Below the pieces are notes generated by a model. It worked only from the letters and a program-made list of their open reading frames with translations. It had not been told where the DNA came from and made no database searches. The position numbers and the translations under genes were made by a program. This document shows positions 3,721-29,824 of a DNA stretch of 40,320 nt, one piece after another; within the stretch, counting starts at the first letter, position 1; each line of letters begins with the position of its first letter. Where the stretch lies: assembly GCA_009835735.1 (NCBI GenBank), contig VXWX01000042.1, forward strand, positions 1-40,320, given 5' to 3'. The stretch comes from Acidimicrobiaceae bacterium (GTDB taxonomy: Bacteria; Actinomycetota; Acidimicrobiia; Acidimicrobiales; Aldehydirespiratoraceae).

Positions 3721-3736
3721 GCGCCCTCCCGTGGAC

Positions 3737-3757
3737 CAGCACCGGCAGCCGGCGCTG
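3737..3757. promoter_or_regulatory. Near-perfect palindrome, candidate operator
   Basis: CAGCACCGGC-A-GCCGGCGCTG pairs at nine of ten positions. Placement between two divergent, functionally linked operons is typical of a shared repressor site. Its GC richness lowers its significance. Confidence 0.4.
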
Positions 3758-3829
3758 ACCCCTACAGGAAGCTACGCCGTCAAGGGCGGGGCCACGCCAC
3801 CGCACGGGCTGATAGGTGGCTGCGGGCGC

Positions 3830-3835
3830 TAGCGT
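3830..3835 (+). promoter_or_regulatory. TAGCGT -10 box for a leaderless dehydrogenase transcript
   Basis: TAGCGT (TANNNT consensus) ends 6 bases before the GTG at 3842, and no ribosome-binding site precedes that GTG. The spacing fits transcription starting at the start codon. No convincing -35 element is visible. Confidence 0.5.
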
Positions 3836-3841
3836 CGGCTC

Positions 3842-5469: not shown

Positions 5470-5486
5470 CCGAAGGAGGCCATCAC

Positions 5487-6326
5487 ATGCAGCACATGCT
5501 CTACGAGACGGACGAGCGGGTGGCAGTGATCACCTTGAACCGCCCCGAGAAGGCCAACGCGGTCAGCGGCCTGACGCTCAACGAGATGGACGAGTGCTTC
5601 ACCCGGGCCGCCGACGACGGTGACGTGCGAGTGATCGTGCTGCGGTCGGTCGGCAAGCACTTCTGCGCCGGTCACGACCTCTCAGGCTCGGACGAGGCCC
5701 TGGAGAAGGCCGCCGCAGGTGAGGGCGGCCCGGCCAAGGGCAGCTTCGTGGACTGGAAGGAGCGGGGCCTCGAAGCCATCTACGAGTGGGAGACGATCCA
5801 CTACCTCGGCTACAGCCGGCGCTGGCGCGACATCCCCAAGCCCACCATCGCGGAGGTGCAGGGCCAGTGCATCGCCGGGGGACTGATGCTCTGCTGGCCC
5901 TGCGACCTGATCATTGCCGCCGACAACGCTATGTTCTCCGATCCGGTGGCCCGCATGGGCATCGGCGGGGTGGAGTATCACGGCCACACCTGGGAGCTCG
6001 GCCCCCGCAAGGCCAAGGAGATGCTGTTCACCGCTCGCCGGATCAGCGCGGCGGAGGCCGAGGCGGCCGGCATGGTCAACCGGGTCGTGCCTCTCGACGA
6101 CCTCCACACCGAGACCATGGCACTGGCCCACGAGATCGCCCAGATGCACCCCTTCGCTCTGGCCCAGTCCAAGCGGGCCGTCAACCGCACCATGGACATC
6201 CAGGGCTTCTATTCGGCGCTCCAGGCCGTGTTCGACATCCATCAGACCGGCCACGGCAACGCCCTGTCGGTGGGCGGGTACCCGATCCTCACCGGCCTGA
6301 CCGATATGAAGAAGTCCCAGCAGTAG
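5487..6326 (+). CDS. Enoyl-CoA hydratase/isomerase (crotonase) superfamily protein
   Basis: A 279-residue crotonase-fold protein. ATG 5487 has AAGGAGG at 5473-5479. The oxyanion-hole segments are present as HFCAGHDL and CIAGGLML, so CoA thioester binding is likely. The two catalytic glutamates of classical enoyl-CoA hydratase are not where expected: the GG-C-E position reads GGLML and the P-E position reads DPVARM. A conserved WELGPRKAKEM block follows. It is therefore probably not an ordinary hydratase; isomerase, hydrolase, lyase or other crotonase chemistry is possible. The protein at 38203-39042 has the same length and the same substitutions, so the two form a paralogous pair. Its presence in a sugar-acid-like operon is unexpected and suggests that pathway yields a CoA ester. 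Confidence 0.88.
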   Translation: MQHMLYETDERVAVITLNRPEKANAVSGLTLNEMDECFTRAADDGDVRVIVLRSVGKHFCAGHDLSGSDEALEKAAAGEGGPAKGSFVDWKERGLEAIYEWETIHYLGYSRRWRDIPKPTIAEVQGQCIAGGLMLCWPCDLIIAADNAMFSDPVARMGIGGVEYHGHTWELGPRKAKEMLFTARRISAAEAEAAGMVNRVVPLDDLHTETMALAHEIAQMHPFALAQSKRAVNRTMDIQGFYSALQAVFDIHQTGHGNALSVGGYPILTGLTDMKKSQQ

Positions 6327-7506: not shown

Positions 7507-9063
7507 GTGAACCTCTGGGAGCGGCCGGACGTCCACGCCAGACGCTGGTTCCTGCTCGGCGTGCTCAGCCTGACGCTGGTTCTGGTGGTCATGTCGGTCT
7601 CCGGCCTGAACGTGGCCCTGGCCACCTTGCAGCGGGATGTGGGGGTCACCGGGCCGCAGCTTCAGTGGATAGTGAACGCCTACGCGCTCGCCTTCGGCGG
7701 GCTGCTGATGACCGGCGGAGCCATCGGCGACCGCTACGGCCGCAAGGGCGCCCTGCTCGGAGGTCTGCTCGTGTTCGGGCTCGGTGCGCTCCTCGGAGGC
7801 TTGGCCGACTCGGCCGAGGTCATCCTGGTCGCTCGGGGAGCCATGGGGGTGGCGGCCGCCTTCGTCATGCCGGCCACGCTGTCGCTGCTGATCGAGATAT
7901 TCCCGCCGGCCGAGCGGCCGACCGCCATCGCCGTGTGGTCGGGCTTCGCCGGGGGAGGCGCCGCCATCGGTCCGGCGCTCACCGGCCTGTTCGTGACCGG
8001 GTGGTGGTTCGTGCCGTCATGGGGCTGGGAGGCCGGCTTCCTCTACAACGTGCCGGTGGTGGCCGCGGTGATGATCGCGGTGGTGCTGTGGCTGCCCCGA
8101 TCCCGGGACGAGCATCCCCGGCATCTCGACCCTGCCGGAGCGGCGCTGTCCATCGTGGCCATGACCGCTCTGATCTACGGCATTATTGAGGGGCCCGAGC
8201 AGGGCTGGACATCGGCACCAGTGCTCTCGGCCTTCGCGGTGGCGGTCATCTTCGGTGCGGTCCTGCTGAGGTGGCAGCAGCGCGCCCGCCATCCGATGCT
8301 GCCGCTGGAGCTATTCGGCGACCGGCGCTTCAGCATCGGCTCGGCCGTGGTCACTATGACGTTCGTCGTGATGATCGGGTTCTGGTTCCTGTTTGCGCTC
8401 TATGTGCAGTTCGTCCTGGGATACTCCGCCCTGGAGGCGGGACTGGCAACCATGCCGGAGGCCCTGTCGTCGATGGTCGTGGCCCCGTTCACCGCTCCGC
8501 TCGCCGCCAGGTACGGATCACGCCGGATCATGGCGGTCGGCTTCGCGGTGTTGGCGCTCACATTTCTGCCGCTCGCGCTGGTCGACACCGATACCAGCTA
8601 TTGGTTCCTGCTGGGACCGCTGGTGCTGGCCGGTGCAGGTCTCAGCCTGGCCATGACCCCGGCCACCAACGACATCATGGTCGCCACTCCCTACGACAAG
8701 GCCGGCATCGGCTCGGCTGTCAACGACACCGCCCGCGAGCTGGGGGCGGCGCTGGGCATCGCCACGCTGGGAGCCCTCTCCACCTCGATCTACCGCGGCA
8801 CGGTGGACGTGGCTCATCTGCCGCCCGAGGTGGCCTCCCCGGCGGCAGAGTCGATGGGTGCGGCCATCGAGGCCGCCTACCAACTGTCCCGATCGGGCAC
8901 GCTGGGCGAGGCCGCGGCCCAGGCGACGATCACCGAGACGGGACAGGCCTTCACGACCGCCTTCGCCCAGACAATGGCGATTTCGGGCGCGGTGTCGGCC
9001 CTAGCCGCGATCGCCCTGCTAGTCGGCCACCTCACCCAGGCCCGCCGCGGCTCTCTCGTCTGA
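7507..9063 (+). CDS. MFS transporter, DHA2-type (14 transmembrane helices)
   Basis: A 518-residue integral membrane protein of the major facilitator superfamily. The loop 2-3 signature GDRYGRKGALL (about 77-87) and the length and hydrophobic pattern match the 14-helix DHA2 drug:H+ antiporter branch, whose members usually export. LNVALATLQRDVG and QWIVNAYALAFG are typical helix-1/2 segments. The start is GTG 7507, 9 bases after the preceding stop. It closes the plus-strand operon, so it could export a pathway product or an inhibitor, or import the substrate. The last 45 bases overlap the convergent metallohydrolase gene (9019-9063), so each transcript carries antisense to the other's 3' end. 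Confidence 0.9.
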   Translation: MNLWERPDVHARRWFLLGVLSLTLVLVVMSVSGLNVALATLQRDVGVTGPQLQWIVNAYALAFGGLLMTGGAIGDRYGRKGALLGGLLVFGLGALLGGLADSAEVILVARGAMGVAAAFVMPATLSLLIEIFPPAERPTAIAVWSGFAGGGAAIGPALTGLFVTGWWFVPSWGWEAGFLYNVPVVAAVMIAVVLWLPRSRDEHPRHLDPAGAALSIVAMTALIYGIIEGPEQGWTSAPVLSAFAVAVIFGAVLLRWQQRARHPMLPLELFGDRRFSIGSAVVTMTFVVMIGFWFLFALYVQFVLGYSALEAGLATMPEALSSMVVAPFTAPLAARYGSRRIMAVGFAVLALTFLPLALVDTDTSYWFLLGPLVLAGAGLSLAMTPATNDIMVATPYDKAGIGSAVNDTARELGAALGIATLGALSTSIYRGTVDVAHLPPEVASPAAESMGAAIEAAYQLSRSGTLGEAAAQATITETGQAFTTAFAQTMAISGAVSALAAIALLVGHLTQARRGSLV

Positions 9064-10353
9064 CTCTCGGGCAGTCGACTCGTAGATGGCCGCGGCCATG
9101 ACCGACTGCTGCTCGGCCCGGCGCTGCCAGTAGATACCGGCCCGCACGCCGTGCACCGCGGCGCTGGTTGGCTCGGCCGCCACAGCCAGATCGATCAGGT
9201 GGCACGCCACCGCGGTCTGCCCCTCCCCGGCCAGGGTCTCGGCCCGGCGGGCCAGGGCTCCAGGACCACCGGCCAGATCGGCCAGCTCCGACGCCACCGA
9301 GGCGTAGCGGGCCGGCTTGAGGTTGCTGGCGACTCCGTCGTACCAGCCGCCGTAGAGCCGCCAGACGTTGCGGACCACGAACTCGGGCTCGTCATAGGTG
9401 GGCGCCAGGTAGGGACGCCGGATCCGCTCGCCGGCCAGGCGGGCCTCGGCCAGCACTTCGTCGAGGTTTGCCCCGCGGTTCATCAAGTCGAGGGTCATCA
9501 TCGTCAACTCCTCGAGCACGGCCGCAGTGTCCAGCAGCACGCCACGGATCCGCTCGCGGCCGGCGATGGGCAGCCCGTGACCGGGCAGCAGCAACTCCGC
9601 GCCGGCCTCGGCGATGTCGCGCAGCGCCGCCACCCATTCCAGCGGGTAGCGCTGCGACTTGGCTGGGTTGCCGGCGTTGGGGAAGTGCCACAGCATCAGG
9701 TCGCCGGTGACGGCCACGGCCCTATCCGCGATCCATGCCCACAAGTGGTCGTCGGTCTCGGCTCTCACATGACGCAACTCGACCTCGAGCCCGCCAACGT
9801 CCAGGGTCATCCGGTGGTTGAACGACACATCCAGATCGGGCACCTCGAAGGCCCAGCCTCCGGCCAGATCCCAGTTGGGCACCCGCCCGAACTGCCGCTG
9901 GTTGACGACCTGGTTGTAGCCGTCGGTCAAGCGGTACCGGGCCACCCGGTCCGGCAGGGACTCGTGTCCCACCAGCAGGGGGCGCCCGCCCGGCGTGGCC
10001 AGACCGTCAACGAGAGCGGCTGCCCCGCCGGCGTGGTCGCGGTGTCCGTGGGTGAGGACGACATGGCTCACCGGCGCCCGGGTTCGGGCCCGAACCCGAT
10101 CGGCCACCCGGGGCCCGAGATCGGGAACGCTGGAGTCGAACACGACGGCGGCGGAGTCGGCCTCTATCACATGCACATGAGCAAAGGACTCGATCATGGT
10201 GACGCCGTCCTGCAATTCGTGGCTGGCGCCCAGACCGTCGCTCGGCAGTCCCAAGCCGAAGGGCCGCCCGTCGGGCTCGAACATCACGTTGTCGTCGATG
10301 GCGGCGGCCGACTTGGCCAGAATGTCGCTGGTCATAGCCCAATGATGGGCCAT
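9019..10353 (-). CDS. MBL-fold hydrolase, alkyl-sulfatase-like
   Basis: A 444-residue metallo-beta-lactamase-fold protein. The dinuclear zinc motif THGHRDHAGG lies at 101-110, with further likely ligands at H203, D218 (VTGD) and H259 (LLPGHG). The C-terminal part (about 290-420) contains VRNVWRLYGGWYDG, typical of the dimerisation domain of class III alkyl sulfatases (SdsA1/BDS1 type). These enzymes hydrolyse primary or secondary alkyl sulfate esters. It lacks the extra C-terminal SCP2-like domain of full-length SdsA1 (about 650 residues). No signal peptide is visible, so it is probably cytoplasmic. Start ATG 10353 is uncertain; ATG 10335 is possible and neither has a good ribosome-binding site. 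It ends the nine-gene Liv operon, hinting that a sulfated or otherwise esterified lipid-like substrate is handled. Confidence 0.85.
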   Translation of the reverse strand: MAHHWAMTSDILAKSAAAIDDNVMFEPDGRPFGLGLPSDGLGASHELQDGVTMIESFAHVHVIEADSAAVVFDSSVPDLGPRVADRVRARTRAPVSHVVLTHGHRDHAGGAAALVDGLATPGGRPLLVGHESLPDRVARYRLTDGYNQVVNQRQFGRVPNWDLAGGWAFEVPDLDVSFNHRMTLDVGGLEVELRHVRAETDDHLWAWIADRAVAVTGDLMLWHFPNAGNPAKSQRYPLEWVAALRDIAEAGAELLLPGHGLPIAGRERIRGVLLDTAAVLEELTMMTLDLMNRGANLDEVLAEARLAGERIRRPYLAPTYDEPEFVVRNVWRLYGGWYDGVASNLKPARYASVASELADLAGGPGALARRAETLAGEGQTAVACHLIDLAVAAEPTSAAVHGVRAGIYWQRRAEQQSVMAAAIYESTARESDERAAAGLGEVAD

Positions 10354-10380
10354 GGGCCGGTGAGATGGAGCCAGCCGAGC

Positions 10381-11529
10381 TCAGAAGCGGTCGGCGATGC
10401 GGATCGACACCGCCGCGCCGGCCACCGACGAGGCAGCCACGGCCAGCCACATCGCCGGGTAGCCGGAGTGCTCGATCAGCCACCCCGTGGCCAGCGGCCC
10501 CACGAATACACCGACGTAGACGCCCATCTGGGTGATCCCGGTGGCACTGCCGGCAGCTCGAGGGTTGGCCCGCACGATCCCGTAGTTCGTGAACACCGGC
10601 CAGATCCAGCCGCATCCGAAAGACAGCAGCATGGCGGCCACATGGGTGGCCGGCAGGCGCAGGGCCAGCCCGGCCATGCCTATCGAGCCGACCAGAGCGG
10701 TGATACCCCCCACCCGGAACGGCTTGACCCTCATCGTGTCGGACAGCCAGCCGCCCACGACTCTCATCGTGATGCCGGTGGCCGCCCCGACACTCAGGAA
10801 CAGCCCGGCGGTGCCGGGTCCGAGCCCGGCGTCGACCCCGGAACCGACCCCCCACGCGACGAGCGATCCAGCGCTGAAGGCCAGGAACGCTCCCACCGCG
10901 GCGGCCAGGAAGAGGTCCCGGGACGACGACTCCGGCACCGAGTCCCGTGTCGCCGCCGTCCGGAACACCGATGATCCGACGGCCGTCCTTACCAGCACCA
11001 GCGACATGAGAGCGAACACCGCGCCGGCCACGTAGGCCCAGCGCCAGCCCACGGTGAGGGCGAGCGAGGGCACCGCGAAACCGGCCAGCAGGGTGGCCGT
11101 CGGCAGGCCCGACTGCTTGATCGACACGGCCAGACCCAGCCGGGGCAGTTGAGCCTGGGCCAGGGCCAGGTTGACCGACGTCTGGTTGGCGGCGTTGGCC
11201 AGCCCGGCCAGCACCAGGAAGCCGATCACCGCCAGGAACGAGCGGGCGGTGGCGGCCAGAGCCAGCTGCACCGCTATGGACACTCCGAGAGCGAGGGTCA
11301 TCTGGTTGAGCGGCCCGATTCGCTGGGCCAGCCGCCCCAGCATGACCGACCCGACCATGGCGGCCCCGAAGAACGATCCGAGACCCCACCCGTACACCCC
11401 TTCGGAAACACCCATCTCCGCACTCACCTGCACCGACATGGCGCCGATGAGGAAGCCGGGCAGCACGGTGGACACAGTGGCCATCACCGCAGCGTTGATC
11501 ACCAGGGACGGACGCGCTTCAGCAGACAC
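10381..11529 (-). CDS. MFS transporter (12-helix type)
   Basis: A 382-residue polytopic membrane protein. Hydrophobic segments run throughout, with a loop 2-3 like segment GSVMLGRLAQRIGP and repeated glycine-rich helices, typical of a 12-helix major facilitator. The start is set at GTG 11529, preceded by GAAGGAAGAG about 8 bases upstream. The open frame extends further, to 11691, but that part lies inside the thioesterase gene and its composition is shadow-like. It lies 23 bases after the thioesterase stop and 27 bases before the alkyl-sulfatase-like gene. Its position beside an ABC importer suggests a second transport step (export or a different solute). Substrate unknown. Confidence 0.85.
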   Translation of the reverse strand: MSAEARPSLVINAAVMATVSTVLPGFLIGAMSVQVSAEMGVSEGVYGWGLGSFFGAAMVGSVMLGRLAQRIGPLNQMTLALGVSIAVQLALAATARSFLAVIGFLVLAGLANAANQTSVNLALAQAQLPRLGLAVSIKQSGLPTATLLAGFAVPSLALTVGWRWAYVAGAVFALMSLVLVRTAVGSSVFRTAATRDSVPESSSRDLFLAAAVGAFLAFSAGSLVAWGVGSGVDAGLGPGTAGLFLSVGAATGITMRVVGGWLSDTMRVKPFRVGGITALVGSIGMAGLALRLPATHVAAMLLSFGCGWIWPVFTNYGIVRANPRAAGSATGITQMGVYVGVFVGPLATGWLIEHSGYPAMWLAVAASSVAGAAVSIRIADRF

Positions 11530-11552
11530 GGCGCGAACTCTTCCTTCTCGCT

Positions 11553-12383
11553 CTAGCCCTGGTTGATGGGACGGATCATGCACTCCTGGGCGAAGGAGGC
11601 GACCAGCGCACCGCCGGCATCGAAGGCGTGGCCCTGGCCGAAGCCCCGAGCCCGGGCCAGGGTGGGCGAGTGCTGCACGATCAGGCACCACTCGTCGAGG
11701 CGGAACGGACGGTGGAACCAGACGGTGTGGCTGGTCACGGCGGTGTGGAGCGTGTGGTAGGAGTCGGCCTGGCTCACGCCATCGACCGGGAGCAGCACGG
11801 TTCCGACGATGGTCAGATCGGTGGCGTGGGCCAGCAGCGCCTGGTGAACGGCCGGGTCGTCGCCCAGGGGCCGGTCCTCGACGCGGGTCCAGAAGGCGTA
11901 ACGGGGAGGAGCCGGTGCGGGATCCCGCAGGTCGGCGCCGCCCGTCACCCTGGTCGTCCAGGGAATCATGGACATGTCCGTCGCGGCGGCCTCGTCAGGG
12001 CGGCCCGCGTCGGGGGCAGGTTCCTGATGCTCAAGAGCCGACGCCTGCTCCAGCACGTGCATCGAGAGCAGGGCCGCGAAGATGGTCTTGCCATGCTGGC
12101 TGGCCCGGACCCGGCGCAGCGCGAAGGTTCGTCCCGTCTGGGTCTCCTCCACCTCGAACTCGAGTGGATCGGAGGTCGAACCCTCCCGCGGGAACAGGCA
12201 GCTCAACGACTTGACGACCTTGCCCTCCGTGGTGGCCGCCCCCAGCGCGACCGCCTGGGCCAGCAACTGGCCGCCGAAGATCCGGGGGTAGTCCATCTCG
12301 ATGTTGGGCGCGGTCCACACGCCCGGCCGCACCGGCTGCACTTCCAGGCAGCCGAGCAGGTCGTCGAGGGTGATGACCGCCAT
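11553..12383 (-). CDS. Acyl-CoA thioesterase II (TesB-like double hotdog)
   Basis: A 276-residue protein related to TesB, which hydrolyses acyl-CoA to free acid and CoA. Two hotdog halves are visible: an N-terminal FGGQLLAQAV segment (about 31-40) with the long helix, and a C-terminal HTVWFHRPFRLDEW block followed by RARGFGQGHAFDAGGALVAS and the terminal QECMIRP. That glutamine matches the catalytic Gln position in TesB. The ATG at 12383 shares one base with the upstream stop in TGATG. In the same operon as a thiolase-like aldolase and a transporter, it probably releases CoA from a blocked or overflow intermediate. Confidence 0.9.
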   Translation of the reverse strand: MAVITLDDLLGCLEVQPVRPGVWTAPNIEMDYPRIFGGQLLAQAVALGAATTEGKVVKSLSCLFPREGSTSDPLEFEVEETQTGRTFALRRVRASQHGKTIFAALLSMHVLEQASALEHQEPAPDAGRPDEAAATDMSMIPWTTRVTGGADLRDPAPAPPRYAFWTRVEDRPLGDDPAVHQALLAHATDLTIVGTVLLPVDGVSQADSYHTLHTAVTSHTVWFHRPFRLDEWCLIVQHSPTLARARGFGQGHAFDAGGALVASFAQECMIRPINQG

Positions 12384-12814
12384 CAGGTCCCGCCGCCCCG
12401 CTCGGCCTCCGCAGGACGGAACAGCGGGACGTGCCACTCGCCGCTGGGCTCGAACAGCACCTCCACCCGCATCCCGATCTCGACCTCGTCGATCTCGCAG
12501 TCGACGATGTTGGTGCCGATCCGCACCGTGGGATCCTCGTCGAGCTCGACGAACGCGAAGACATAGGGCGGCGTGAACCCCGGGATCCACTCCTTGTGGT
12601 TGATCGTGTACGTGGCCACGGTGCCGGTTCCGGCCACCGGTTCCGGGCCGACCCGGCGGGAGTGGCAGAAGGGACAGGCCGGGCCGGGCGGGTGGACCCA
12701 GCGGGAGCATTCGCCGCACCGCTGGATCCTGAGCCGGCCGTCGGCCCCGGAACGCCAGTAGAACTCGCTCTCAGGCGAGGCCAGCACGAACCGGGGCGGG
12801 CTGTCCACGCTCAT
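12383..12814 (-). CDS. DUF35 / OB-fold zinc-ribbon acyl-CoA-associated protein
   Basis: A 143-residue protein with an N-terminal rubredoxin-like zinc ribbon (C33-x2-C36 and C47-x2-C50) followed by an OB fold beginning near GTVATYTINHKEW. These DUF35 proteins are usually encoded beside thiolase-superfamily genes. In the steroid side-chain aldolase Ltp2, a DUF35 domain is a structural partner needed for activity. The gene is coupled on both sides: ATG 12814 overlaps the thiolase stop (ATGA), and its own stop overlaps the thioesterase start (TGATG). Because the thiolase-like neighbour lacks the usual cysteine, an Ltp2-type complex is the favoured reading. Confidence 0.9.
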   Translation of the reverse strand: MSVDSPPRFVLASPESEFYWRSGADGRLRIQRCGECSRWVHPPGPACPFCHSRRVGPEPVAGTGTVATYTINHKEWIPGFTPPYVFAFVELDEDPTVRIGTNIVDCEIDEVEIGMRVEVLFEPSGEWHVPLFRPAEAERGGGT

Positions 12815-13992
12815 GACGGGCCCTTGGTCAGCAGCAGGCATCCGGTCTCGGGGCCGCCGCCGGCTCCGACCGCCACCACCTCGCAGCCGGATACCTGGAT
12901 GTTGGCCGTGCCCCGCAACTGCATCACGGCCTCGTGCAGGTGGCCGAAGCCGTGCAGCCGGCCCGCGGAGAGCTGGCCGCCGGAGGTGTTGAGCGGCACC
13001 GAACCGTCGGGGCCGATGTTGACACCGCCCTCCACGAAGGCCCCGCTCTCCCCCTTGCCGCAGAAGCCCATGGCCTCGATCCAGGCCAGGGTCAGCCAGC
13101 TGAAGCCGTCGTACAGCTGAGCGGTGTCCACGTCGTCGACGGTCAGCTCCGTGCGCTCCCACATCGAAGCGGCGGTGTGACGCATCATCATCGACGTCAG
13201 GTCGTCGAACTGATCCCAGGAGGGCCGGCCCCGGATGGCGGTCCCCATAGCGTTCACACCCACCGCCCCCGCTGGGGCGTCGGGTGCATGGTCCCGGTGC
13301 GAGACCACCACCGCCGTGGACCCGTCGCAGGGAACGTCACAGTCGTAGAGGCACAGCGGGTCGCTGACCATGCGCACGGCCAGGTAGTCGTCGATGGTCA
13401 TGGGATCGGTGTAGATGGCCTTGGGGTTGGCCGCCGCGTTGGCCCGCCCGTTGACCGCGATGGCGCCGAGCTGGGTGCGGGTGGTGCCGTAGTCGTGCAT
13501 GTGGCGGCGGGCGTAGCAGGCGACCCAGCAGGCGGCCGACGCCGCGCCGTAGGGAATCATGAACTGGAACGGACCGGCCGAGCCGGCCATCCCGCCGCCA
13601 CCACCGCCCCCGCTGCCGGGGCGCAACGGCCCTCCGCTGCCCTCCACCACGGTGCGGAACACCAGAACGTGGCGAGCCAGGCCGGTCGCCACCGCCAGGA
13701 TCGCGTTGTGGACCGCTCCCAGCGGTCCGGCGGTCTCCACGCCCGCGCTGCGCCAGTTGAGCGACAGCCGCAACGCCTCGTGCAGTTCGGCCCCCATGGC
13801 CCCTCCGAAGGAACCGCCGAAGCCGGGATAGGTGGACACGCCGTCGATGTCGGCGGTGGTGAGCCCGGCGTCCTCGACAGCCCGCAGCGCGGCTTCGACG
13901 GTGAGGTCGATACCCGTGCGGTGCAGCCGCCGGCCGATGTCGGACTGGGCCGCGCCGCTGATCACAGCCCGCCGTTCCATCCGCTCACCCAT
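12811..13992 (-). CDS. Thiolase-fold protein without the nucleophilic cysteine (Ltp2-like aldolase candidate)
   Basis: The 393-residue protein has the thiolase / SCP2-thiolase fold. ISGAAQSDIG at the N terminus and AVEDAGLTTADIDGV are typical. Where thiolases carry the nucleophile (pattern C-x-S-G before an Ala/His helix), this sequence reads ETAGPLGAVHNA (86-97) with Gly-Pro and no cysteine, so claisen-type thiolysis is unlikely. A tyrosine in LYDGFSW (Y294) and a histidine-rich HGFGHLHEA (347-355) are candidate acid/base residues. Such proteins paired with DUF35 act as retro-aldolases in steroid side-chain removal (Ltp2), which is my preferred but unproven role. Seven consecutive glycines (128-134) form an unusual loop. 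Start: ATG 13992, overlapping the upstream stop in TGATG; ATG 13980 is the alternative. Confidence 0.85.
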   Translation of the reverse strand: MGERMERRAVISGAAQSDIGRRLHRTGIDLTVEAALRAVEDAGLTTADIDGVSTYPGFGGSFGGAMGAELHEALRLSLNWRSAGVETAGPLGAVHNAILAVATGLARHVLVFRTVVEGSGGPLRPGSGGGGGGGMAGSAGPFQFMIPYGAASAACWVACYARRHMHDYGTTRTQLGAIAVNGRANAAANPKAIYTDPMTIDDYLAVRMVSDPLCLYDCDVPCDGSTAVVVSHRDHAPDAPAGAVGVNAMGTAIRGRPSWDQFDDLTSMMMRHTAASMWERTELTVDDVDTAQLYDGFSWLTLAWIEAMGFCGKGESGAFVEGGVNIGPDGSVPLNTSGGQLSAGRLHGFGHLHEAVMQLRGTANIQVSGCEVVAVGAGGGPETGCLLLTKGPS

Positions 13993-14720
13993 CAGCGGGT
14001 TGCTCCCGTCTCGAAGAGGCGCGACTCCAGGACGGCTCCTGCCTCGTTCGTCGGGCCGTGCCAGGTGATCAGCCCGTGCTCGAGAACGGCTGCCCGGTCG
14101 CACAGCTCGAGGGCATGGCCGACCTGCTGCTCAACGATCAGCAGCGCCGTTCCCGTTGCCCTGATATGCGACAGCGTCTCGAAGACCTGGTCCACGACCA
14201 TGGGGGCGAGGCCCAGCGAGAGTTCGTCGGCGATCAGCAGGCGCGGTGACTCCACCAGCACTCGGGCCAGCGAGAGCATCCGCTGCTCGCCCCCGGACAG
14301 CGTGCCGGCCATCTGGCCGCGACGCTCGCCCAGCCGGGGAAAGAGCTCGTAGGCCCGATCCAGGGCGTCGGCCAGCCCGGCTCGGCCGAAAGCCCGCTGG
14401 AACGACAGCGCCAGATTGTCCTGCACGCTGAGGGTGGCGAACACCGAACGTCCCTCGGGGGCGTGCATCACCCCGGCCTGCACGAATCGCCAGGCGGACA
14501 GGCTGCCCTGGTCGGTCTCCGAACCGTCGATGTGCACCGATCCGGCACTGGGGGCCAGTAAGCCGCTGGCCACGCGGGCCAGGGTGGTCTTGCCGGCCCC
14601 GTTGGCTCCGACCAGCGCAACCGCCTCCCCGGCACCGACGACGAGCGACACCCCGAACAGCGCTCGAAACGGCCCGTAGCCGGCCTCCACATCGCGCAAT
14701 TCAAGGATCGGGGCGCTCAT
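13992..14720 (-). CDS. livF-like: Branched-chain amino acid-type ABC transporter ATPase (LivF-like)
   Basis: A 242-residue ATP-binding subunit. Walker A GANGAGKT is at 38-45, signature LSGGEQ at 141-146, and Walker B LLIADE at 161-166, followed by IVEQQVG in place of a canonical H-loop, as is usual for LivF proteins. It energises the fused permease encoded two genes upstream, together with the LivG-like ATPase. Translationally coupled: its ATG overlaps the LivG stop at 14717-14720, and its stop overlaps the thiolase-like start. Liv-type importers in actinobacterial catabolic clusters often carry carboxylic acids rather than amino acids. Confidence 0.92.
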   Translation of the reverse strand: MSAPILELRDVEAGYGPFRALFGVSLVVGAGEAVALVGANGAGKTTLARVASGLLAPSAGSVHIDGSETDQGSLSAWRFVQAGVMHAPEGRSVFATLSVQDNLALSFQRAFGRAGLADALDRAYELFPRLGERRGQMAGTLSGGEQRMLSLARVLVESPRLLIADELSLGLAPMVVDQVFETLSHIRATGTALLIVEQQVGHALELCDRAAVLEHGLITWHGPTNEAGAVLESRLFETGATR

Positions 14721-15484
14721 GTGACCTCGAAGCTACCCAGGTAGGCCCGCCGCACTGCCGGATCGGCCAGCACGTCCGCGGTCGGACCCTCGGCGATGAG
14801 AGCCCCCGAGTCGAGCACGTAGGTGCGCTCGGTGAAGTCGGCCACGAGCGACACGTCATGCTCAACCAGCAGCACCGCGTAGCCCCGGGTGTCCTGTACG
14901 GACCGCAGCGTGTCGGCCAGCACCTGCGTCTCGTCGCGGTCGAGGCCCGACGACGGCTCGTCCAGCAGCAGGAGCTGCGGACCGGTCATCAGGGCCCGGC
15001 CCACCTCCACCAGCCGGCTCTGCCCCAGGCTGAGCGATTCGACCGGCTTGGCGGCGAGCTCGGCGATGCCCAGCAGCTCCAGCACCTCGTCGCAGGCGGC
15101 GATCTCGCCGGGTGTCGGCCGGCCCCGGCCGATCAGGTCCTTCCAGAATGCGCCCGTGCCGTTGCGGATCCGCTCGGCGATGAGCAGGTGCTCGCGCACG
15201 GTGGTGTCGGCGAACAGCTCGACCCGCTGGAACGTCCGGCCCATGCCCGCACGGGCCCGGCGATGGGCGGGCCAGCCGCCGACGTCGACACCGTTGAGGA
15301 GAACCCGGCCGGCATCGGGCCGCAGGATCCCGAGCAGGCAGTTGAACAGGGTTGTCTTGCCGGCTCCGTTGGGGCCGATCAGACCGACCCGCTCGCCCGC
15401 CTCGACGCTCACGCTCACATCGTCGAGGGCGCGGATGCCCGCAAAGGCCACACTCACACCGGAAGCCTCCAGCACCCACGTCAT
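14717..15484 (-). CDS. livG-like: Branched-chain amino acid-type ABC transporter ATPase (LivG-like)
   Basis: A 255-residue ATPase. Walker A is GPNGAGKT (37-44). The signature loop is LSLGQSRLVE (151-160), a slightly atypical LSxGQ form common in LivG proteins. Walker B is LLLLDEPSSGLD (171-182), and the H-loop histidine is in LVEHDV. The arginine-rich GRTFQRVELF segment is the usual LivG Q-loop region. The start overlaps the permease stop by four bases (ATGA, 15481-15484). Together with the LivF-like protein it forms the heterodimeric motor of the importer. Confidence 0.93.
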   Translation of the reverse strand: MTWVLEASGVSVAFAGIRALDDVSVSVEAGERVGLIGPNGAGKTTLFNCLLGILRPDAGRVLLNGVDVGGWPAHRRARAGMGRTFQRVELFADTTVREHLLIAERIRNGTGAFWKDLIGRGRPTPGEIAACDEVLELLGIAELAAKPVESLSLGQSRLVEVGRALMTGPQLLLLDEPSSGLDRDETQVLADTLRSVQDTRGYAVLLVEHDVSLVADFTERTYVLDSGALIAEGPTADVLADPAVRRAYLGSFEVT

Positions 15485-17532
15485 GCCCGAGCCTCCCGGG
15501 ATTCGAGCCAGCGGTTGATGCGGGTCGCCGAGCGCCGCTTGCCGTGCTCCACCAGGCCCTCGGGATGGCGGGCGAACTGCATCGCCATGAGACCGAACAG
15601 GATCAGCCGCCAGTTGCCCGACAGCGGGAAGAACTCAGGGAGACGCTCCTCCCCCCGCACGATCCAGCCGAGCAGCTCGCCCTGGAGTATCAGCGGCTCG
15701 AACAGAGCGAAGGCCGCACCGGCTTGAATGGCTCCCTCCACGGTGCGAGCCCCGAGCGCGACCACCACCACCAGCCAGAACAACGCGACGACGGGAGCAA
15801 AGTTGAGCGCGTAATTAACATTCTGCTGATGCATCGCCAGCAGCGCTCCGCCCAACCCGGCGATGGCGGCCGACACCGCGAAGGCGACGATCCGGGCCCG
15901 AGCCGCGGAGATGCCGATCGACGCGGCGGCCACCTCGCTGCCACGAAGGGCGGCCAGAGTGCGCCCGATCGTGCCCTCGCGCAGCTGTATCACCACCACC
16001 GACACCACCACCAGCGCCACCACCGCCAGCACCAGGAAGGCGCGGTCGCTGGCGAAGTCGATCGGTCCGATCAGCGGGCGGGGTACCTGGGTGCCGGTGA
16101 GCAGCGCGGTGCTTCCCCCGCCCACCCAGGAGAACTTCACCATCACCGCGTCGAAGAAGAAGGCGAACGCCAGCGTGGCGATGGCGAGCCACACTCCCCC
16201 CAACCGCAGAACCGGAAGTGACAACAACGCTCCGACTACTGCAGCCAGCGCCGCTCCGATCAGCGCCGCGGCCAGAACCGACATGTTGAACCGGTCTGCC
16301 ATCTGGAAGACGGTGAAGCCTCCGATGGCCGCGAACGTCCCCTGGCACAGCGAGATCTGGCCGCCCATGCCGGTGATGACGGTGACCGACAGGTAGATGA
16401 GCGCGATGATCACCGCCTTCGTAACGAGGCTCATCCATAGGACATCGGCCCGGAACCACACCACCAGCCCGACCACGGTCACGAAGAACACCCCGAACAG
16501 CCGGGTGAACAGCGTCAGCTTTGGGTGGCGCTCGAGGGCGGCCAACGCCGGCGGCGGGGGATCCACGCCGGCCAGGGGATCGGATGCCTCGCGCTGCCGG
16601 CCGACGGCGCGCCACAGCACCAGGATGGCGAACAGCACCACGAACGGCAGCGACGGGGTGAGATTCTCCTGGAATGGCCGCAGCCAGGTGTGGTCGTCGG
16701 CCAGCCCGGGCAGAAACGTGTTGAACACCGCGATGAACCACCCCAGCCCCAGCCCGCCCAGCAGGGCCCGGGGCAGGCTGACGAGCAGTCCTGTGGCCGC
16801 CGCGGCCACCGCGATGATCACCAGGGTGAAGTAGTCCCCCGAGCTGAGCGAGTTGAACCGGGGCGCGATCAGCACCCCGGCCATGCCCGCGAACGTGCTC
16901 GACAGCGCCCAGGCGAACGCCGAGACCCGGTTGGCGTTGATCCCGCTCAGCTCGGTCATGCGGGGACTCTCCACCACCGCCCGCATCGATAGGCCCATCA
17001 TCGTGAACCGGAACAGGGCGGCCAGGAGCAGCGTCCCGGCCAGCGCCACCGCCATCATGGCCAACTCGTCGCGGTTGAAGCGGTAGACCCCGAAGGGGTC
17101 GTAGTACACGCCGGCGCCGTCGGGAACGATGCCGGTTATCTGTCGCCCGGCGACGGCGCTGAACCGGGCCGCCCAGTTGAAGATCTCGGGCAGGGCCACG
17201 CTGAGACCGATGGTGACGACCAGCTTCGACACCGCCGAGGCGGTGCGGAGGTGGCGGAAGATGGCTCGCTCGAGCACCAGTCCCACCAGCGGCGCCAGCA
17301 CGAACACCGACACCAGTAGGGCCGCCCACTTGGGCCAGCCCCACACGCTATGGGCCTTGAAGTACATGGCGGCCGAGATGTAGGCCTGCGCGCCGAACGC
17401 CAGGTTGAACACGCCGGAGGTCTTGTAGGTGAGCACGAAGCCCAGTGCTATGAGCGCGTAGACCGCTCCGGGGGGCGTGCCCTGAAGCAGACCTCGAAAG
17501 AGGTCCTCGAAGAACCCCGACGCCAGGATCAC
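15481..17532 (-). CDS. Fused LivH-LivM permease of a branched-chain amino acid-type ABC importer
   Basis: At 683 residues this is both permease subunits in one chain. Residues about 1-300 are LivH-like (GTPPGAVYALIALGFVLTYK at the N terminus, multiple helices). A hydrophilic proline/alanine linker with PPPPALAALERHP lies near 320-335. Residues about 345-650 are LivM-like, with the characteristic GMGGQISLCQGTFAAIGG and a second cytoplasmic coupling segment in GISAARARIVAF. Normally these are two genes of about 300 residues each. The four-base overlap with the LivG gene and 45 bases from the binding-protein gene place it in a complete importer operon. The C terminus has a short basic tail. Confidence 0.92.
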   Translation of the reverse strand: MILASGFFEDLFRGLLQGTPPGAVYALIALGFVLTYKTSGVFNLAFGAQAYISAAMYFKAHSVWGWPKWAALLVSVFVLAPLVGLVLERAIFRHLRTASAVSKLVVTIGLSVALPEIFNWAARFSAVAGRQITGIVPDGAGVYYDPFGVYRFNRDELAMMAVALAGTLLLAALFRFTMMGLSMRAVVESPRMTELSGINANRVSAFAWALSSTFAGMAGVLIAPRFNSLSSGDYFTLVIIAVAAAATGLLVSLPRALLGGLGLGWFIAVFNTFLPGLADDHTWLRPFQENLTPSLPFVVLFAILVLWRAVGRQREASDPLAGVDPPPPALAALERHPKLTLFTRLFGVFFVTVVGLVVWFRADVLWMSLVTKAVIIALIYLSVTVITGMGGQISLCQGTFAAIGGFTVFQMADRFNMSVLAAALIGAALAAVVGALLSLPVLRLGGVWLAIATLAFAFFFDAVMVKFSWVGGGSTALLTGTQVPRPLIGPIDFASDRAFLVLAVVALVVVSVVVIQLREGTIGRTLAALRGSEVAAASIGISAARARIVAFAVSAAIAGLGGALLAMHQQNVNYALNFAPVVALFWLVVVVALGARTVEGAIQAGAAFALFEPLILQGELLGWIVRGEERLPEFFPLSGNWRLILFGLMAMQFARHPEGLVEHGKRRSATRINRWLESREARA

Positions 17533-17577
17533 ACTGCGGCGCTCAAGGCTCGGTTGCGGTCAAGCGAGCGTGCCGGG

Positions 17578-19134
17578 TCAGGCCGCGAAGTCGGTGGGCG
17601 TCGGCTCGGACCATTCCTCGGTGTCGCCGGGCCAGCACATCCACGGCGCGGGCTGGAACCCGACGAATCCCCCGCCCTCGATCCGCACCGAGGACGTGCA
17701 ATGAAGCTCGTACGCGTGGTCGTAGACGAAGGGCTCGACCGCGGTGTGCTGGCGACTCCAGTCGACTGGGTTGATCAGGCCGCCCGCGTCGTAGGTGATC
17801 TGGTTGAGCGAGTCGATGATGGACTGCCGGTCGAATCCAGGTCCTGCCTCCAGCAACCCGGTGACGAACAGGTCGGCGTTGATCCAGCCGACCAGCGTCT
17901 GCTCGGCCAGCGGGCCTCCATGAGCCGGCACCCACCGGTCGTAGGCGTGACGCAACGGGCTGTCGACCTCGTACTCGAACGCGGCGAACACCAGCAGGGC
18001 GTAGTCACCGTCGAACAGATCGCCGGCCGCCGCCACGAACTCATCGTTGTAGGAGTTCGGATGGAGCAGGGTGATCTGGTCCCTCACCCCCTGGCGCTCC
18101 AGCTCCTGAGCCAGGGTCAGCATGGCGTTCAGGTCCATGCAGGTGGCGATGAAGTCGACACCGGCGTCGATCATCTGGGTCACTTCCGGCCCGATGCCGT
18201 TGGGCAGGCCGTAGGCCATGTTGTCGTTGAAGTAGGCGACCTCCATACCGACCGCAGGCCCGTAGAGGTCGATCGAGTCGGAGAAGGCCTTGGCGCACAC
18301 CTTGGATGTCTCGGTGATGCCGTATCCGAGCAGCCCGACCCTGGTCGCGCCGGCCTGCGACGCGATCCAGACGAAGCTGCGGATAGTGCAGGTGGGGCAT
18401 CCGATCACATGGTTGCCGAAGATGTTGTCGCGGTTGACGGCGTCGGCGCCGTGGATGTTCCAAACGAAGGTCGGAACCCCTGCGTCGTTGAGGTCGCCCC
18501 ACCCCGAAGGAAGGAGCGTCGCCTGGAACGCGGCCAGGCTGCTGTTGTCGGCGATGATCTTCAGGGCGTGCTCCTGGTTGCGGAACAGCTCGTCGTCGAG
18601 GATCTCGTCGATGACCAGATTGCGGCCGTAGACACCGCCCGAGTCGTTGACGTAATCGAAGTAGGCCTGGATCCCGGTGACGAAGCAGTCGAGGATGCAG
18701 GTTCCCAGCGGGTTGTTCTGCTTGATGCCCACGACCGACACTCGGATCTCGTCGTCGGTTACTCCGGGCACACCCTCGAGGGCCATGAACGTGTGGCGCT
18801 CCGGGTAAGGGTCGACCGGCTCCTCGACGGCGGGCTCGGTGGTCGTGGGCTCGTCAGTTGCTGCCTCGTCGGTGCCGACCGGCTCCGGGTCCGGGTCCGG
18901 CTCGGGCGCCTCGTCGGTGCCGGCCGGCTCCGGGTCCGGCTCGGGCTCGGGCGCCTCGTCGGTGCCGGCCGGCTCGGGGTCCGGTTCCGGCTCCGGAGCG
19001 GCCGGCGAGGTCGTGGTGGGCGCGACTGCATCGGATGCGGGGGTGGCTCCGTCGCCGCTGGGGCTGTTGCCGCAGGCCGCGGCCAGCATGGCTATGGCGC
19101 AGACGGTTGTGAGTGTGCGTCGGGCTCGATTCAT
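17578..19134 (-). CDS. ABC importer substrate-binding lipoprotein (Liv-type periplasmic-binding fold)
   Basis: A 518-residue extracytoplasmic binding protein. The ATG at 19134 begins a basic n-region, a hydrophobic stretch and the lipobox LAAAC with C21, so the mature protein should be lipid-anchored. The N-terminal Leu at -4 rather than -3 is slightly off consensus. Residues about 45-105 are a Pro/Glu/Asp/Thr-rich linker with three 15-residue repeats (see 18863-18997), then a type I periplasmic-binding domain (DEIRVSVVGIK onward). The linker probably spaces the domain from the membrane. A frame open to 19215 exists, but the lipobox fixes the start. A GGGGG-rich ribosome-binding site (TAGGGGGACCC) precedes the ATG. 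It heads the nine-gene minus-strand operon; ligand unknown, likely a carboxylate or other hydrophobic acid. Confidence 0.92.
   Translation of the reverse strand: MNRARRTLTTVCAIAMLAAACGNSPSGDGATPASDAVAPTTTSPAAPEPEPDPEPAGTDEAPEPEPDPEPAGTDEAPEPDPDPEPVGTDEAATDEPTTTEPAVEEPVDPYPERHTFMALEGVPGVTDDEIRVSVVGIKQNNPLGTCILDCFVTGIQAYFDYVNDSGGVYGRNLVIDEILDDELFRNQEHALKIIADNSSLAAFQATLLPSGWGDLNDAGVPTFVWNIHGADAVNRDNIFGNHVIGCPTCTIRSFVWIASQAGATRVGLLGYGITETSKVCAKAFSDSIDLYGPAVGMEVAYFNDNMAYGLPNGIGPEVTQMIDAGVDFIATCMDLNAMLTLAQELERQGVRDQITLLHPNSYNDEFVAAAGDLFDGDYALLVFAAFEYEVDSPLRHAYDRWVPAHGGPLAEQTLVGWINADLFVTGLLEAGPGFDRQSIIDSLNQITYDAGGLINPVDWSRQHTAVEPFVYDHAYELHCTSSVRIEGGGFVGFQPAPWMCWPGDTEEWSEPTPTDFAA
18863..18997. repeat. 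Three 45-bp tandem repeats encoding the lipoprotein linker
   Basis: Three in-frame 45-bp units (starting near 18863, 18908 and 18953 on the plus strand) encode 15-residue units of the form PEP-acid-PDPEP-x-GTDEA. The copies differ by a few substitutions only. This is a recent in-frame expansion candidate and could vary in copy number between strains. Confidence 0.85.
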
Positions 19135-19296: not shown

Positions 19297-19306
19297 GTGC
19301 GGCTGA
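19277..19306 (+). CDS. Possible 9-codon leaderless upstream ORF
   Basis: GTG at 19277 lies 7 bases after TACAGT and opens nine codons, including a cysteine, ending at TGA 19304-19306. It overlaps the dehydrogenase start (GTG 19297) by 10 bases in another frame. Translation could modulate that start. It may equally be chance. Confidence 0.2.
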   Translation: MKARGTVCG

Positions 19307-20505
19307 CCTACACCTCAGAGGTCGAGGCGTTCAGAGCCGAGTTCTCGGCCTGGCTCGACGCCAACCTGCCCGACGAGGCGGCCACCGCCATCCGGCCCCG
19401 GTCCAGCGCCGACATCCCGGCGTGGGCCCGGGACTTCCAGCGCCGCATGTTCGACGACGGCTGGCTGGTGCCGGGATACCCGCCGGAGTTCGGCGGGCGC
19501 AACGCCAGCCTGTACAAGCAGGCAGTCTTCTGGGAGGAACTGGGCCGGCGCCGGGTGACTCAGAGCTTCAACCCCCAGGGTCTCGGCATCGTCAGCGCGT
19601 CGATCATCACCTTCGGCACCGAGGAACAGAAGCACCGCTGGGCCGTCCCGATCATGCGGGCAGAGCGGACCGCGGCGCTGGGCATGAGCGAACCCGGCGC
19701 GGGCAGCGATCTGGCCGGACTGACCACCCGGGCCGTTCTCGACGGCGACCGCTTCATCGTCAACGGCCAGAAGGTGTGGACCTCGGGGGCCCACGACGCC
19801 GACGTGCTGCTGGCCTTCGTCCGCACCGATCCCGACGTGCCCAAGCACAAGGGCATCTCGGCGTTGATCATCGAGACCGACACGCCGGGGCTGGTGCGAA
19901 GGCCCTTCGGCGACATCACCGGCCGGCCACCCGACTTCAACGAGGTGTTCTTCGACGACGTGCCGGTCCCCCGCGAGAACCTGGTCGGCGAACTCAACGA
20001 CGGCTGGCGGGTGTGCACCGGCTCGCTGGCCCACGAACGCGAGATGCTATGGATCCTGTGGTCTCAGGGCCTCGACCGGATGCTCGACGACATGCTCGAA
20101 CAGCTGAATGAAGGCGCGGGCGCGGGCGCGGGCGCGGCCGGTGACCCGGTGGTGCTGGACGGGCTGGGCGGCTCGATCATGGACTCCTGGGCCCTGCGCC
20201 TGCTGGGCCAGCGCCAACTGGCCCGCAGCCAGAGAGGCCTGCGCGTGGCCGACCAGTCGCTGCTGAAGCTGCTCGGCTCGGAGGCCCAGCAGAAGCTGGC
20301 GCTCCTGATGCTGGAGTCGCTGGGTCCGGTCGCTCTGGACCGCACCGTGCCCGAAGGTGCGCAGTCGCCCTACGAGAGCGATCGCTCGGCGCTGTCGTGG
20401 GCCGACCGGTACTGGTTCACGTTCGCGGGCACCATCAGCGGGGGCACCAGCGAGATTCACCGCAACATCATCGCCGAGCGTGTCCTCGGCCAGCCCAGGG
20501 GCTAG
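19297..20505 (+). CDS. Acyl-CoA dehydrogenase, catalytic-type subunit
   Basis: A 402-residue FAD enzyme for alpha,beta-dehydrogenation of an acyl-CoA. The N-terminal helical part, the LGMSEPGAGSDLA flavin-binding block (about 128-140), the WTSGAHDAD segment and the C-terminal SGGTSEIHRNIIAERVLG are all present. The C-terminal position used as base in medium-chain enzymes is glycine (SGGTSE), but E247 in LAHER matches the alternative helix-G base used by isovaleryl-type and steroid ChsE-type enzymes. Only four bases separate it from the shorter dehydrogenase gene downstream, suggesting an alpha2beta2 complex. An alanine-glycine microsatellite (20113-20136) inserts about eight residues. Start GTG 19297 is preceded by a weak GGGGG five bases away. 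Confidence 0.92.
   Translation: MRLTYTSEVEAFRAEFSAWLDANLPDEAATAIRPRSSADIPAWARDFQRRMFDDGWLVPGYPPEFGGRNASLYKQAVFWEELGRRRVTQSFNPQGLGIVSASIITFGTEEQKHRWAVPIMRAERTAALGMSEPGAGSDLAGLTTRAVLDGDRFIVNGQKVWTSGAHDADVLLAFVRTDPDVPKHKGISALIIETDTPGLVRRPFGDITGRPPDFNEVFFDDVPVPRENLVGELNDGWRVCTGSLAHEREMLWILWSQGLDRMLDDMLEQLNEGAGAGAGAAGDPVVLDGLGGSIMDSWALRLLGQRQLARSQRGLRVADQSLLKLLGSEAQQKLALLMLESLGPVALDRTVPEGAQSPYESDRSALSWADRYWFTFAGTISGGTSEIHRNIIAERVLGQPRG
20113..20136 (+). repeat. (GGCGCG)4 microsatellite inside the acyl-CoA dehydrogenase gene
   Basis: Four exact hexamer copies encode alternating Gly-Ala within the loop after LNE. Hexamer gain or loss keeps frame, so loop length could vary between strains. Confidence 0.8.
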
Positions 20506-24081: not shown

Positions 24082-24099
24082 CTCAGGCTCGCGGCGCGG

Positions 24100-29779: not shown

Positions 29780-29824
29780 CGGTCCGCTACTTCGATGGCC
29801 TCGGAAGCTCGGCCTCTGGTGGCA

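Follow-up and report, generated by a model that had tools for sequence, protein, structure and literature searches.

A Liv-type importer operon with a thiolase-fold protein that lacks the thiolase cysteines and with its DUF35 partner, a putative aldolase pair, in an Acidimicrobiaceae genome

Why should the genes of a Liv-type importer be joined in one operon to the gene of a thiolase-fold protein that lacks the cysteines of a thiolase, and which reaction might such a protein catalyze? The question is raised by a stretch of 40,320 nucleotides from the draft genome of an Acidimicrobiaceae bacterium (GenBank assembly GCA_009835735.1; 3.29 Mb; 84% complete), i.e., positions 1 to 40320 of contig VXWX01000042.1, the whole of which is called the window here. 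Nine genes stand in series on its minus strand, from position 19134 down to position 9019, and encode a substrate-binding protein (SBP), a fused LivH-LivM permease (LivHM), the ATPases LivG and LivF, the thiolase-fold protein, a DUF35 protein, a TesB-type thioesterase, an MFS transporter, and a metallohydrolase. The fold, the sequence, and the partner of the thiolase-fold protein all point to the Ltp2-ChsH2(DUF35) complex (PDB 6ok1) as the closest solved relative. A preliminary description of the window, made from its letters, had suggested an aldolase-like enzyme rather than a thiolase, and this functional claim is right in outline. We propose, with a probability of roughly one half, that the operon contains a conserved catabolic unit for the import and coenzyme A (CoA)-dependent breakdown of a carboxylic acid, in which the thiolase-DUF35 pair performs a retro-aldol cleavage.

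RESULTS

A thiolase fold without thiolase cysteines

The thiolase-fold protein (393 amino acids; positions 12811 to 13992, minus strand) matches PF22691 and carries the motifs YDGF (with Tyr294) and GGQLSAGRLHG (with Arg345 and His347). All of its matches to NCBIfam thiolase and lipid-transfer families fell below the curated cut-offs, against which NCBIfam matches were judged throughout; its best family matches bear names such as "lipid-transfer protein" or "acetyl-CoA acetyltransferase." A phmmer search against the PDB matched it to 6ok1_A (Ltp2; E = 4e-51), 4u4e (3e-44), 7yvy (2e-29), and 9myr (Sal; 3e-29), with PhlC, BbsB, and the thiolase of the HMG-CoA synthase complex also among the matches. 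When a structural model (31-row alignment; predicted local distance difference test [pLDDT] score, 85.9; predicted template modeling score, 0.89) was submitted to Foldseek, two 6ok1 chains came out on top (E = 1.7e-32; template modeling score, 0.84), followed by 4u4e in third and the Sal-Shy complex 9myr in fourth place. Residues 122 to 139 are the sole stretch of at least three residues with a pLDDT of <50; the accessible text of a study on TcLtp2 and CtSal (PMC12329534) describes the loop at that place as partly disordered in these two proteins and as an ordered helix in most members of the thiolase family.

In pairwise alignments, the segment ETAGPLG stands where the thiolases 7yvy and 6esq carry EAACASG, and the nucleophilic cysteine is therefore absent, as the preliminary description had held. 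The cysteine position of the HDCF motif is Gly296. The position of CxGGG, which we take to be the classical C-terminal cysteine motif of thiolases, reads GAGGG, and the positions of the thiolase histidines (HDxF and GHP motifs) hold Tyr294 and Arg345. A true thiolase, degradative or biosynthetic, is thus ruled out by the missing nucleophile, the missing second cysteine, and the loss of both histidines.

A coupled Gly296/Arg345 signature in the active site

In TcLtp2, Tyr294 acts as the base, Tyr344 as the acid, and His296 lies in the oxyanion hole, while CtSal has the catalytic residues Tyr302 and Cys304 and places Gln352 opposite Tyr344 of Ltp2 (accessible text of PMC12329534). Our alignment script returned 294, 296, and 344 for TcLtp2 exactly, and the CtSal numbers were all shifted by the same 24 positions; the active-site alignment is therefore anchored. 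In the window protein, Tyr294 is kept and aligns with the catalytic tyrosine of both enzymes, His347 is the same as in Ltp2, His296 has become Gly296, and Tyr344 has become Arg345. The Ltp2-DUF35 design suggested in the preliminary description consequently stands insofar as 6ok1 is the solved structure nearest to each of the two proteins, and the Ltp2 tyrosine is retained on inspection, but the Ltp2 active site is not shared. Identity with Ltp2 is ruled out by Gly at His296 and Arg at Tyr344, and a Sal aldolase is ruled out by Gly296 and Arg345 where Sal has Cys304 (YDCY) and Gln352.

Related loci were collected with two peptide patterns (P[LF]xLYDCD[VAI]P and [PA]LN[TP]xGGQLS), and all counts out of 80 given below refer to the best 80 loci among the matches listed. 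Both YDGF and GRxHG lie outside the two patterns, and a sample drawn by similarity only repeats the signature (YDG[FY] in 57 of 61 rows, the window itself being one). The tree and the first motif count used 127 rows (96 with YDGF and 31 others), 11 of which repeat a gene already present. Among the 116 distinct rows, Gly296 and Arg345 form a coupled signature: Arg occupies position 345 in 90 of 90 YDGF rows, with His at position 347 in 89 of them, and in none of the 26 non-YDGF rows, which hold Tyr (12 rows), His (7 rows), Pro (4 rows), Phe (2 rows), or Gln (1 row). The catalytic pair of thiolase, Ltp2, or Sal occurs in none of the YDGF rows, and a cysteine falls within the nucleophile segment in a single distinct one (L181), off the nucleophile position.

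In a FastTree phylogeny (LG model; 373 columns; rooted on 6esq), the YDGF rows form a group of their own (support, 0.49) beside 18 Ltp2-like rows (support of the parent node, 0.91) and separate from Ltp2, Sal, and the Ltp3/Ltp4-like genes of mycobacteria. The window and loci L116 to L122 make up a clade of eight with a support of 1.0. As labelled in the records, the YDGF rows come from Actinobacteria, Deltaproteobacteria, Myxococcota, Gammaproteobacteria, and other taxa. The mycobacterial genes, which we take from their position to be the ltp3/ltp4 pair, lie with DUF35 15 to 18 kb from ltp2, read YVPF, YAPF, or CAPF, and have 7yvy as their best match; they are ruled out as members of the same class by these motifs and by their place outside the YDGF group. 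Atf1 was also rejected as a member, since it is reported to be 56% identical to Sal1 (accessible text of PMC10398937).

Recurrence of the LivF-thiolase order in one clade

The gene order recurs in other genomes, as a search suggested in the preliminary description revealed. The thiolase gene is preceded by LivF, at a distance of at most 300 bp, in 7 of the 80 best loci (L116 to L122) and in 0 of the 73 others. These seven are exactly the loci with a thiolase identity of at least 72%. Because the order recurs in them and the thiolases of six are only 72 to 77% identical to that of the window, we do not regard it as a product of chance. The DUF35 gene comes next in six of the seven, L122 being cut at the contig edge, and TesB follows in five (L116 to L120); L122 is again cut, and L121 shows no TesB in about 4 kb of room. 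As labelled in the records, the clade belongs mostly to Acidimicrobiia. In L119, a 405-amino-acid open frame (positions 11587 to 12804 of that locus) lies between DUF35 and TesB and resembles an APH-type phosphotransferase by eye.

The nearest locus among the matches listed is L116, from Acidimicrobiaceae bacterium SB0677_bin_3, whose thiolase is 98% identical to that of the window and which shares a mean DNA identity of 92.8% across 21.1 aligned kb. The label SB0677 is also used for a Nitrospira from Great Barrier Reef sponges in the accessible text of PMC12203066, and a sponge origin of the window is possible on the basis of this label.

Of 247 genomes, 94 (own genome included) were matched, and 40 further neighborhoods were picked by hand from the best matches. 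No Liv gene stood directly beside the thiolase gene in these 40; Liv genes lay approximately 3 to 9 kb away in L067 and L069, and single, weaker ATPase matches were seen in L045, L053, and L057. A genome of the same order (G187) keeps the Liv-TesB unit, the dehydrogenase pair, a P450, a CoA transferase, and an amidohydrolase in the order of the window, with extra genes added; there, the space between LivF and TesB holds no thiolase gene, and a thiolase-DUF35 pair is found about 22 kb off.

The DUF35 partner

The stand-alone DUF35 protein (143 amino acids; positions 12383 to 12814, minus strand) contains PF12172 and PF01796 (zinc ribbon and OB fold), and its best PDB match is 6ok1_B, the ChsH2 domain of the Ltp2 complex (E = 2e-22). 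The spacing of its zinc ribbon is C-x2-C-x10-C-x2-C, which the accessible text of PMC12329534 calls canonical, unlike that of Shy. In 73 of the 80 best loci, the thiolase gene has a DUF35 gene no more than 300 bp away (65 upstream and 8 downstream), and one of the seven loci without it (L122) stops at a contig edge. DUF35 and the thiolase fold share a single open frame in four of the 80 loci (L148, L169, L187, and L190), and these apparent natural fusions support the view that the two proteins form a complex. Two tandem DUF35 genes were seen upstream of the thiolase gene in 11 of the 80 loci (L123, L127, L130, L131, L132, L137, L140, L150, L152, L158, and L164).

The importer genes and their probable coupling to the thiolase gene

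The gene content and coordinates given in the preliminary description were borne out by Pfam and NCBIfam scans and by the junctions. The Liv importer is complete (i.e., SBP, two permease domains, LivG, and LivF), with its parts matching Pfam families above and NCBIfam families below the respective cut-offs. The SBP of this HAAT-type importer (positions 17578 to 19134, minus strand; PF13458, E = 9e-23) has a Glu/Pro/Asp-rich repeat linker close to its N terminus, and orthologs with 50 to 53% identity are found at the corresponding site in L117 and L119. It showed no sequence match in the PDB at a threshold of 0.01, and its model, built from four rows, reached a pLDDT of 45 and is unusable for reading a ligand. 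A tRNA-Thr called at positions 18921 to 19006, antisense within the repeat linker, is probably false. The fused LivH-LivM permease (positions 15481 to 17532, minus strand) has two PF02653 (BPD_transp_2) stretches, with UrtB/LivH and LivM/UrtC matches, and is 68 to 70% identical in L117, L119, L120, and L122. The best matches of the ATPases, both encoded on the minus strand, are PRK11300 LivG (positions 14717 to 15484; E = 5e-59) and PRK11614 LivF (positions 13992 to 14720; E = 7e-54), each below the curated cut-off.

With the starts that we chose, the five junctions from LivHM to TesB overlap by 4, 4, 1, 4, and 1 bp, and gaps of 45, 23, and 45 bp separate SBP from LivHM, TesB from the MFS gene, and the MFS gene from the hydrolase gene, respectively. 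The overlap between the LivF stop and the thiolase start is the first of the 1-bp overlaps and becomes an 11-bp gap if the start is moved to the next ATG (position 13980). Translational coupling of the importer and thiolase genes may fairly be inferred from this layout.

TesB, the MFS transporter, and the metallohydrolase

The TesB-type acyl-CoA thioesterase (276 amino acids; positions 11553 to 12383, minus strand) matches PF02551, PF20789, and PF13622, as well as TIGR00189 (E = 3e-44, below the curated cut-off). Its inclusion in the set by the preliminary description agrees with its presence in five of the seven Liv-linked relatives. The two genes behind it, which were thought to complete the set, fared differently. 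The MFS transporter (positions 10381 to 11529, minus strand; PF07690) and the metallo-beta-lactamase-fold hydrolase (positions 9019 to 10335, minus strand) lie within 6 kb of the thiolase gene in 1 of the 80 best loci, the close relative L116, and both are absent from all four other Liv-linked loci with at least 6 kb of downstream room. In L117 to L121, a P450 merely 27 to 30% identical to that of the window stands downstream instead. Both genes are lineage specific here, and the MFS transporter is probably not a member of the core.

The hydrolase matches PF00753 and the alkyl-sulfatase dimerization domain PF14863 (1.4e-23) and keeps the HxHxDH motif. It ends after the dimerization domain, and no Pfam match to a C-terminal SCP2-like domain was obtained. 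PsdsA (4nur) gave the sole full-length alignment, in which two of its Glu residues face His and Asp of the hydrolase in a weakly aligned region; these Glu residues are presumably metal ligands, as in SdsA1. At a threshold of E ≤ 1e-40, homologs with 29 to 54% identity occur in 105 genomes of the class out of 247, that of the window among them. Given the changed Glu positions and the single locus out of 80, an alkyl sulfatase is rejected as a member of the system, and the desulfation step proposed earlier falls with it.

Neighboring genes and the steroid question

Two acyl-CoA dehydrogenase genes lie beyond the operon on the plus strand. The first (positions 19297 to 20505) encodes a subunit of a steroid-type pair, with a clear best PDB match to Tcur3483 (6wy9, E = 9e-50), followed by 4x28_A; the second (positions 20525 to 21631) encodes the probable partner subunit, whose best match to Tcur3481 (6wy8_A, E = 3e-30) is narrow, other dehydrogenases reaching 2e-29. 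The pair is 67% (first) and 63% (second) identical in L091. An enoyl-CoA hydratase of the crotonase type (positions 5487 to 6326, plus strand, with the ATG at 5487 chosen; PF00378, E = 1e-45 on the frame 4743 to 6326) is a candidate for the hydratase that feeds the aldolase. It is 66 to 69% identical near the operon in four relatives (L117 to L120), where it comes after the P450 on the opposite strand; the P450 and one hydratase query were used without their N-terminal overhangs in these neighbor-gene searches. Acyl-CoA synthetases and CoA transferases also lie near the operon. The best PDB match of the P450 of the window is a reconstructed CYP125 ancestor (198 bits), and the next other P450 scores 186 bits. 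The order P450-dehydrogenase pair-DUF35-Ltp2, for which we assume the igr gene names, was read in the mycobacterial loci L227 and L229, and the window is much alike.

We looked for ring-degradation markers in the genomes of the window and of L116 to L119, five of the eight owners of the LivF-thiolase order. In the window genome, the best KshA score was 22.1 bits, with one frame at 24.5 in sum (cut-off, 23.3), against 292 to 307 bits in two control genomes; the HsaC-like score was 22.7 bits, against 317 to 323 bits in the controls, themselves below the cut-off of 366. The KshA and HsaC-like scores were 84 and 20 bits for L116 (G251), none and none for L117 (G252), none and 294 bits for L118 (G253), and 146 bits and none for L119 (G254). 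Neither marker was found in G187, and G019, which is without the thiolase-Liv order, scored 104 and 241 bits. Strong KshA and HsaC matches thus occurred together in none of the five owners. Since the ring markers are weak or patchy in operon owners, a steroid nucleus is not supported as the substrate, a negative result that is limited by incomplete genomes such as the 84% complete one of the window.

Positions 2392 to 6326 of the window encode an FGGY kinase, a 2-hydroxyacid dehydrogenase, a class II aldolase, and the crotonase. All four genes are found near the operon in L119 and three of the four in L118 and L121; the 2-hydroxyacid dehydrogenase and the class II aldolase are kept in all three loci, and the FGGY kinase is kept in L119 and L121. 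The dehydrogenase, aldolase, and kinase would be out of place in a purely steroid route, and the four genes together hint at a branch of the pathway for sugar-like compounds or hydroxy acids. A tRNA-Pro (TGG) is predicted at positions 24014 to 24092 on the minus strand; it lies between the amidohydrolase gene and the CoA transferase gene, whose assigned start it overlaps. An export-type system, composed of an FtsX/MacB-type permease (859 amino acids) and an ABC ATPase, is encoded within the catabolic island at positions 27200 to 30655.

DISCUSSION

From the gene content and the relatives described above, we infer a thiolase-DUF35 complex, a reaction, residue roles, an order of steps, and a type of substrate for the proposed unit. 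The Liv-type importer would take up a carboxylic acid, which the nearby acyl-CoA synthetases or CoA transferases would convert into its CoA ester. Next, the two-subunit acyl-CoA dehydrogenase would dehydrogenate the ester, and a hydration would follow, for which the crotonase encoded at positions 5487 to 6326 is the probable enzyme. The thiolase-DUF35 pair may cleave the resulting 3-hydroxyacyl-CoA by a retro-aldol reaction into an aldehyde or ketone and a short acyl-CoA, with Tyr294 serving, as it does in Ltp2, as the base for the hydroxyl, and with Arg345, given room by Gly296 and perhaps aided by His347, holding and protonating the enolate. TesB would release CoA from end or dead-end products.

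Several observations weigh against this proposal. In 73 of the 80 best loci, the thiolase gene has no LivF beside it, and in L091 a Liv-TesB unit exists without the thiolase pair, and a pair lies 22 kb away. The node that unites the YDGF rows is weakly supported, and the model is only moderately confident around R345 (block mean, 76). A C-terminal cysteine (ACAGGG) is kept in 5 of the 90 distinct YDGF rows (L127, L129, L130, L137, and L140, not the window), so this cysteine has not been lost throughout the group. The proton donors of Ltp2 (Tyr344) and Sal (Cys304) are both missing in the window protein, which leaves the second half of the aldolase reaction without a proven residue, and no characterized YDGF member was found.

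Other explanations start from the same observations. The fold could perform other carbon-carbon chemistry (i.e., aldol or Claisen condensation, or decarboxylation), the invariant Arg binding a substrate carboxylate; DUF35-partnered relatives such as PhlC, BbsB, and the thiolase of the HMG-CoA synthase complex do catalyze varied reactions, and the exchange of an acid or His for Arg is a large change that could serve to bind a second carboxylate. Cysteine-dependent acyl transfer requires a nucleophilic cysteine, which the window protein lacks, and both the retained Tyr294 and the catabolic neighbors (dehydrogenases, hydratase, thioesterase, and CoA transferases) make such chemistry unlikely, if still worth keeping in view. 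The likeness to Ltp2-DUF35, the P450 near the CYP125 ancestor, the dehydrogenases closest to Tcur3483 and Tcur3481, and the order shared with L227 and L229 would all suit a true Ltp2-type aldolase for steroid or bile-acid side chains, accompanied by a steroid-acid importer, as a variant of the mycobacterial igr set. Single ring markers in some relatives also fit, as does G019, which has both but not the thiolase-Liv order. We nevertheless consider this distinctly unlikely, since the acid Tyr344 and His296 are changed, no MaoC hydratase domain was detected among the window proteins scanned, KshA and HsaC-like matches are weak in the window genome and never jointly strong in the five owners, and the lead of CYP125 is small.

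The importer might also be an ordinary one for branched-chain amino acids that happens to lie next to an unrelated acyl-CoA operon. Every importer part does match Liv/Urt families, the SBP ligand is not readable, and most of the best loci have the thiolase gene without an adjoining LivF. To this idea we give little credence, given the five overlapping junctions, the retention of the LivF-thiolase order in seven loci down to 72% thiolase identity, and the persistence of the Liv-TesB coupling where no thiolase lies between, in L091 and L099. In the neighbor-gene searches, L093, L094, L095, and L097 showed Liv genes with neither thiolase nor TesB directly behind LivF. Because other loci keep Liv genes without the pair there, its placement within the Liv unit is characteristic of a single clade. 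Uptake of a sulfated lipid, followed by desulfation by the metallohydrolase and side-chain cleavage, as the preliminary description read the operon, could draw on the PF14863 domain and on the codirectional hydrolase gene in the window and in L116; with the SCP2-like domain not found, the Glu positions changed, and the gene absent from all four orthologous loci with room, it is very improbable.

Under the proposed retro-aldol reading, the YDGF/Arg proteins would be a third class of DUF35-dependent aldolases beside Ltp2 and Sal, with Arg replacing the Tyr acid, and one clade would use its importer operon for a nonsteroid acid (e.g., a terpenoid or alicyclic one); we put this forward tentatively. 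Neither a Liv-coupled aldolase nor this gene order was met in the titles and abstract openings of the open-license literature, and the YDGF form was not met in the papers listed, which covered Sal, Shy, Atf1, and related steroid work; both results are weak evidence of absence. If the YDGF proteins are aldolases, many genomes carry an unrecognized carbon-carbon cleaving step. Their Gly/Arg pair would then be a direct change, open to testing, in a fold for which repurposing is already established. The Liv link offers a handle on the substrate, as the binding protein can be screened.

The window can be compared with several known systems. Its metallohydrolase shares HxHxDH and the dimerization domain with the class III alkyl sulfatases (SdsA1, Pisa1, and PsdsA) but differs in having no detected C-terminal domain and in its changed Glu positions. 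The importer resembles LivKHMGF (HAAT) systems in its SBP, permease domains, and two ATPases, but LivH and LivM are fused and catabolic enzymes lie within the operon. Like the igr operon (cyp125-fadE28-fadE29-chsH1-chsH2-ltp2), the window has a P450, two dehydrogenases, DUF35, and an Ltp2-like enzyme within about 10 kb; unlike it, the window has no detected MaoC hydratase, its genes stand in divergent units, and an importer is added. The mycobacterial Atf1-ChsH4 pair likewise has a separate DUF35 protein, ChsH4 (138 amino acids; accessible text of PMC10398937). Sal-Shy(DUF35) of Comamonas testosteroni (9myr) is similar in fold, DUF35 partner, and catalytic Tyr, but it is 25% identical, with YDCY, Cys304, and Gln352 against YDGF and Arg in the window, and the zinc site of Shy is C3H1 against C4 in the window DUF35. 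Ltp2-ChsH2 of Thermomonospora curvata (6ok1) shares the thiolase fold without thiolase cysteines, the C4 zinc-ribbon DUF35 partner, and the Tyr294 position; the window differs from it by Gly for His296, Arg for Tyr344, a DUF35 that is not fused to MaoC, and a place in a Liv operon.

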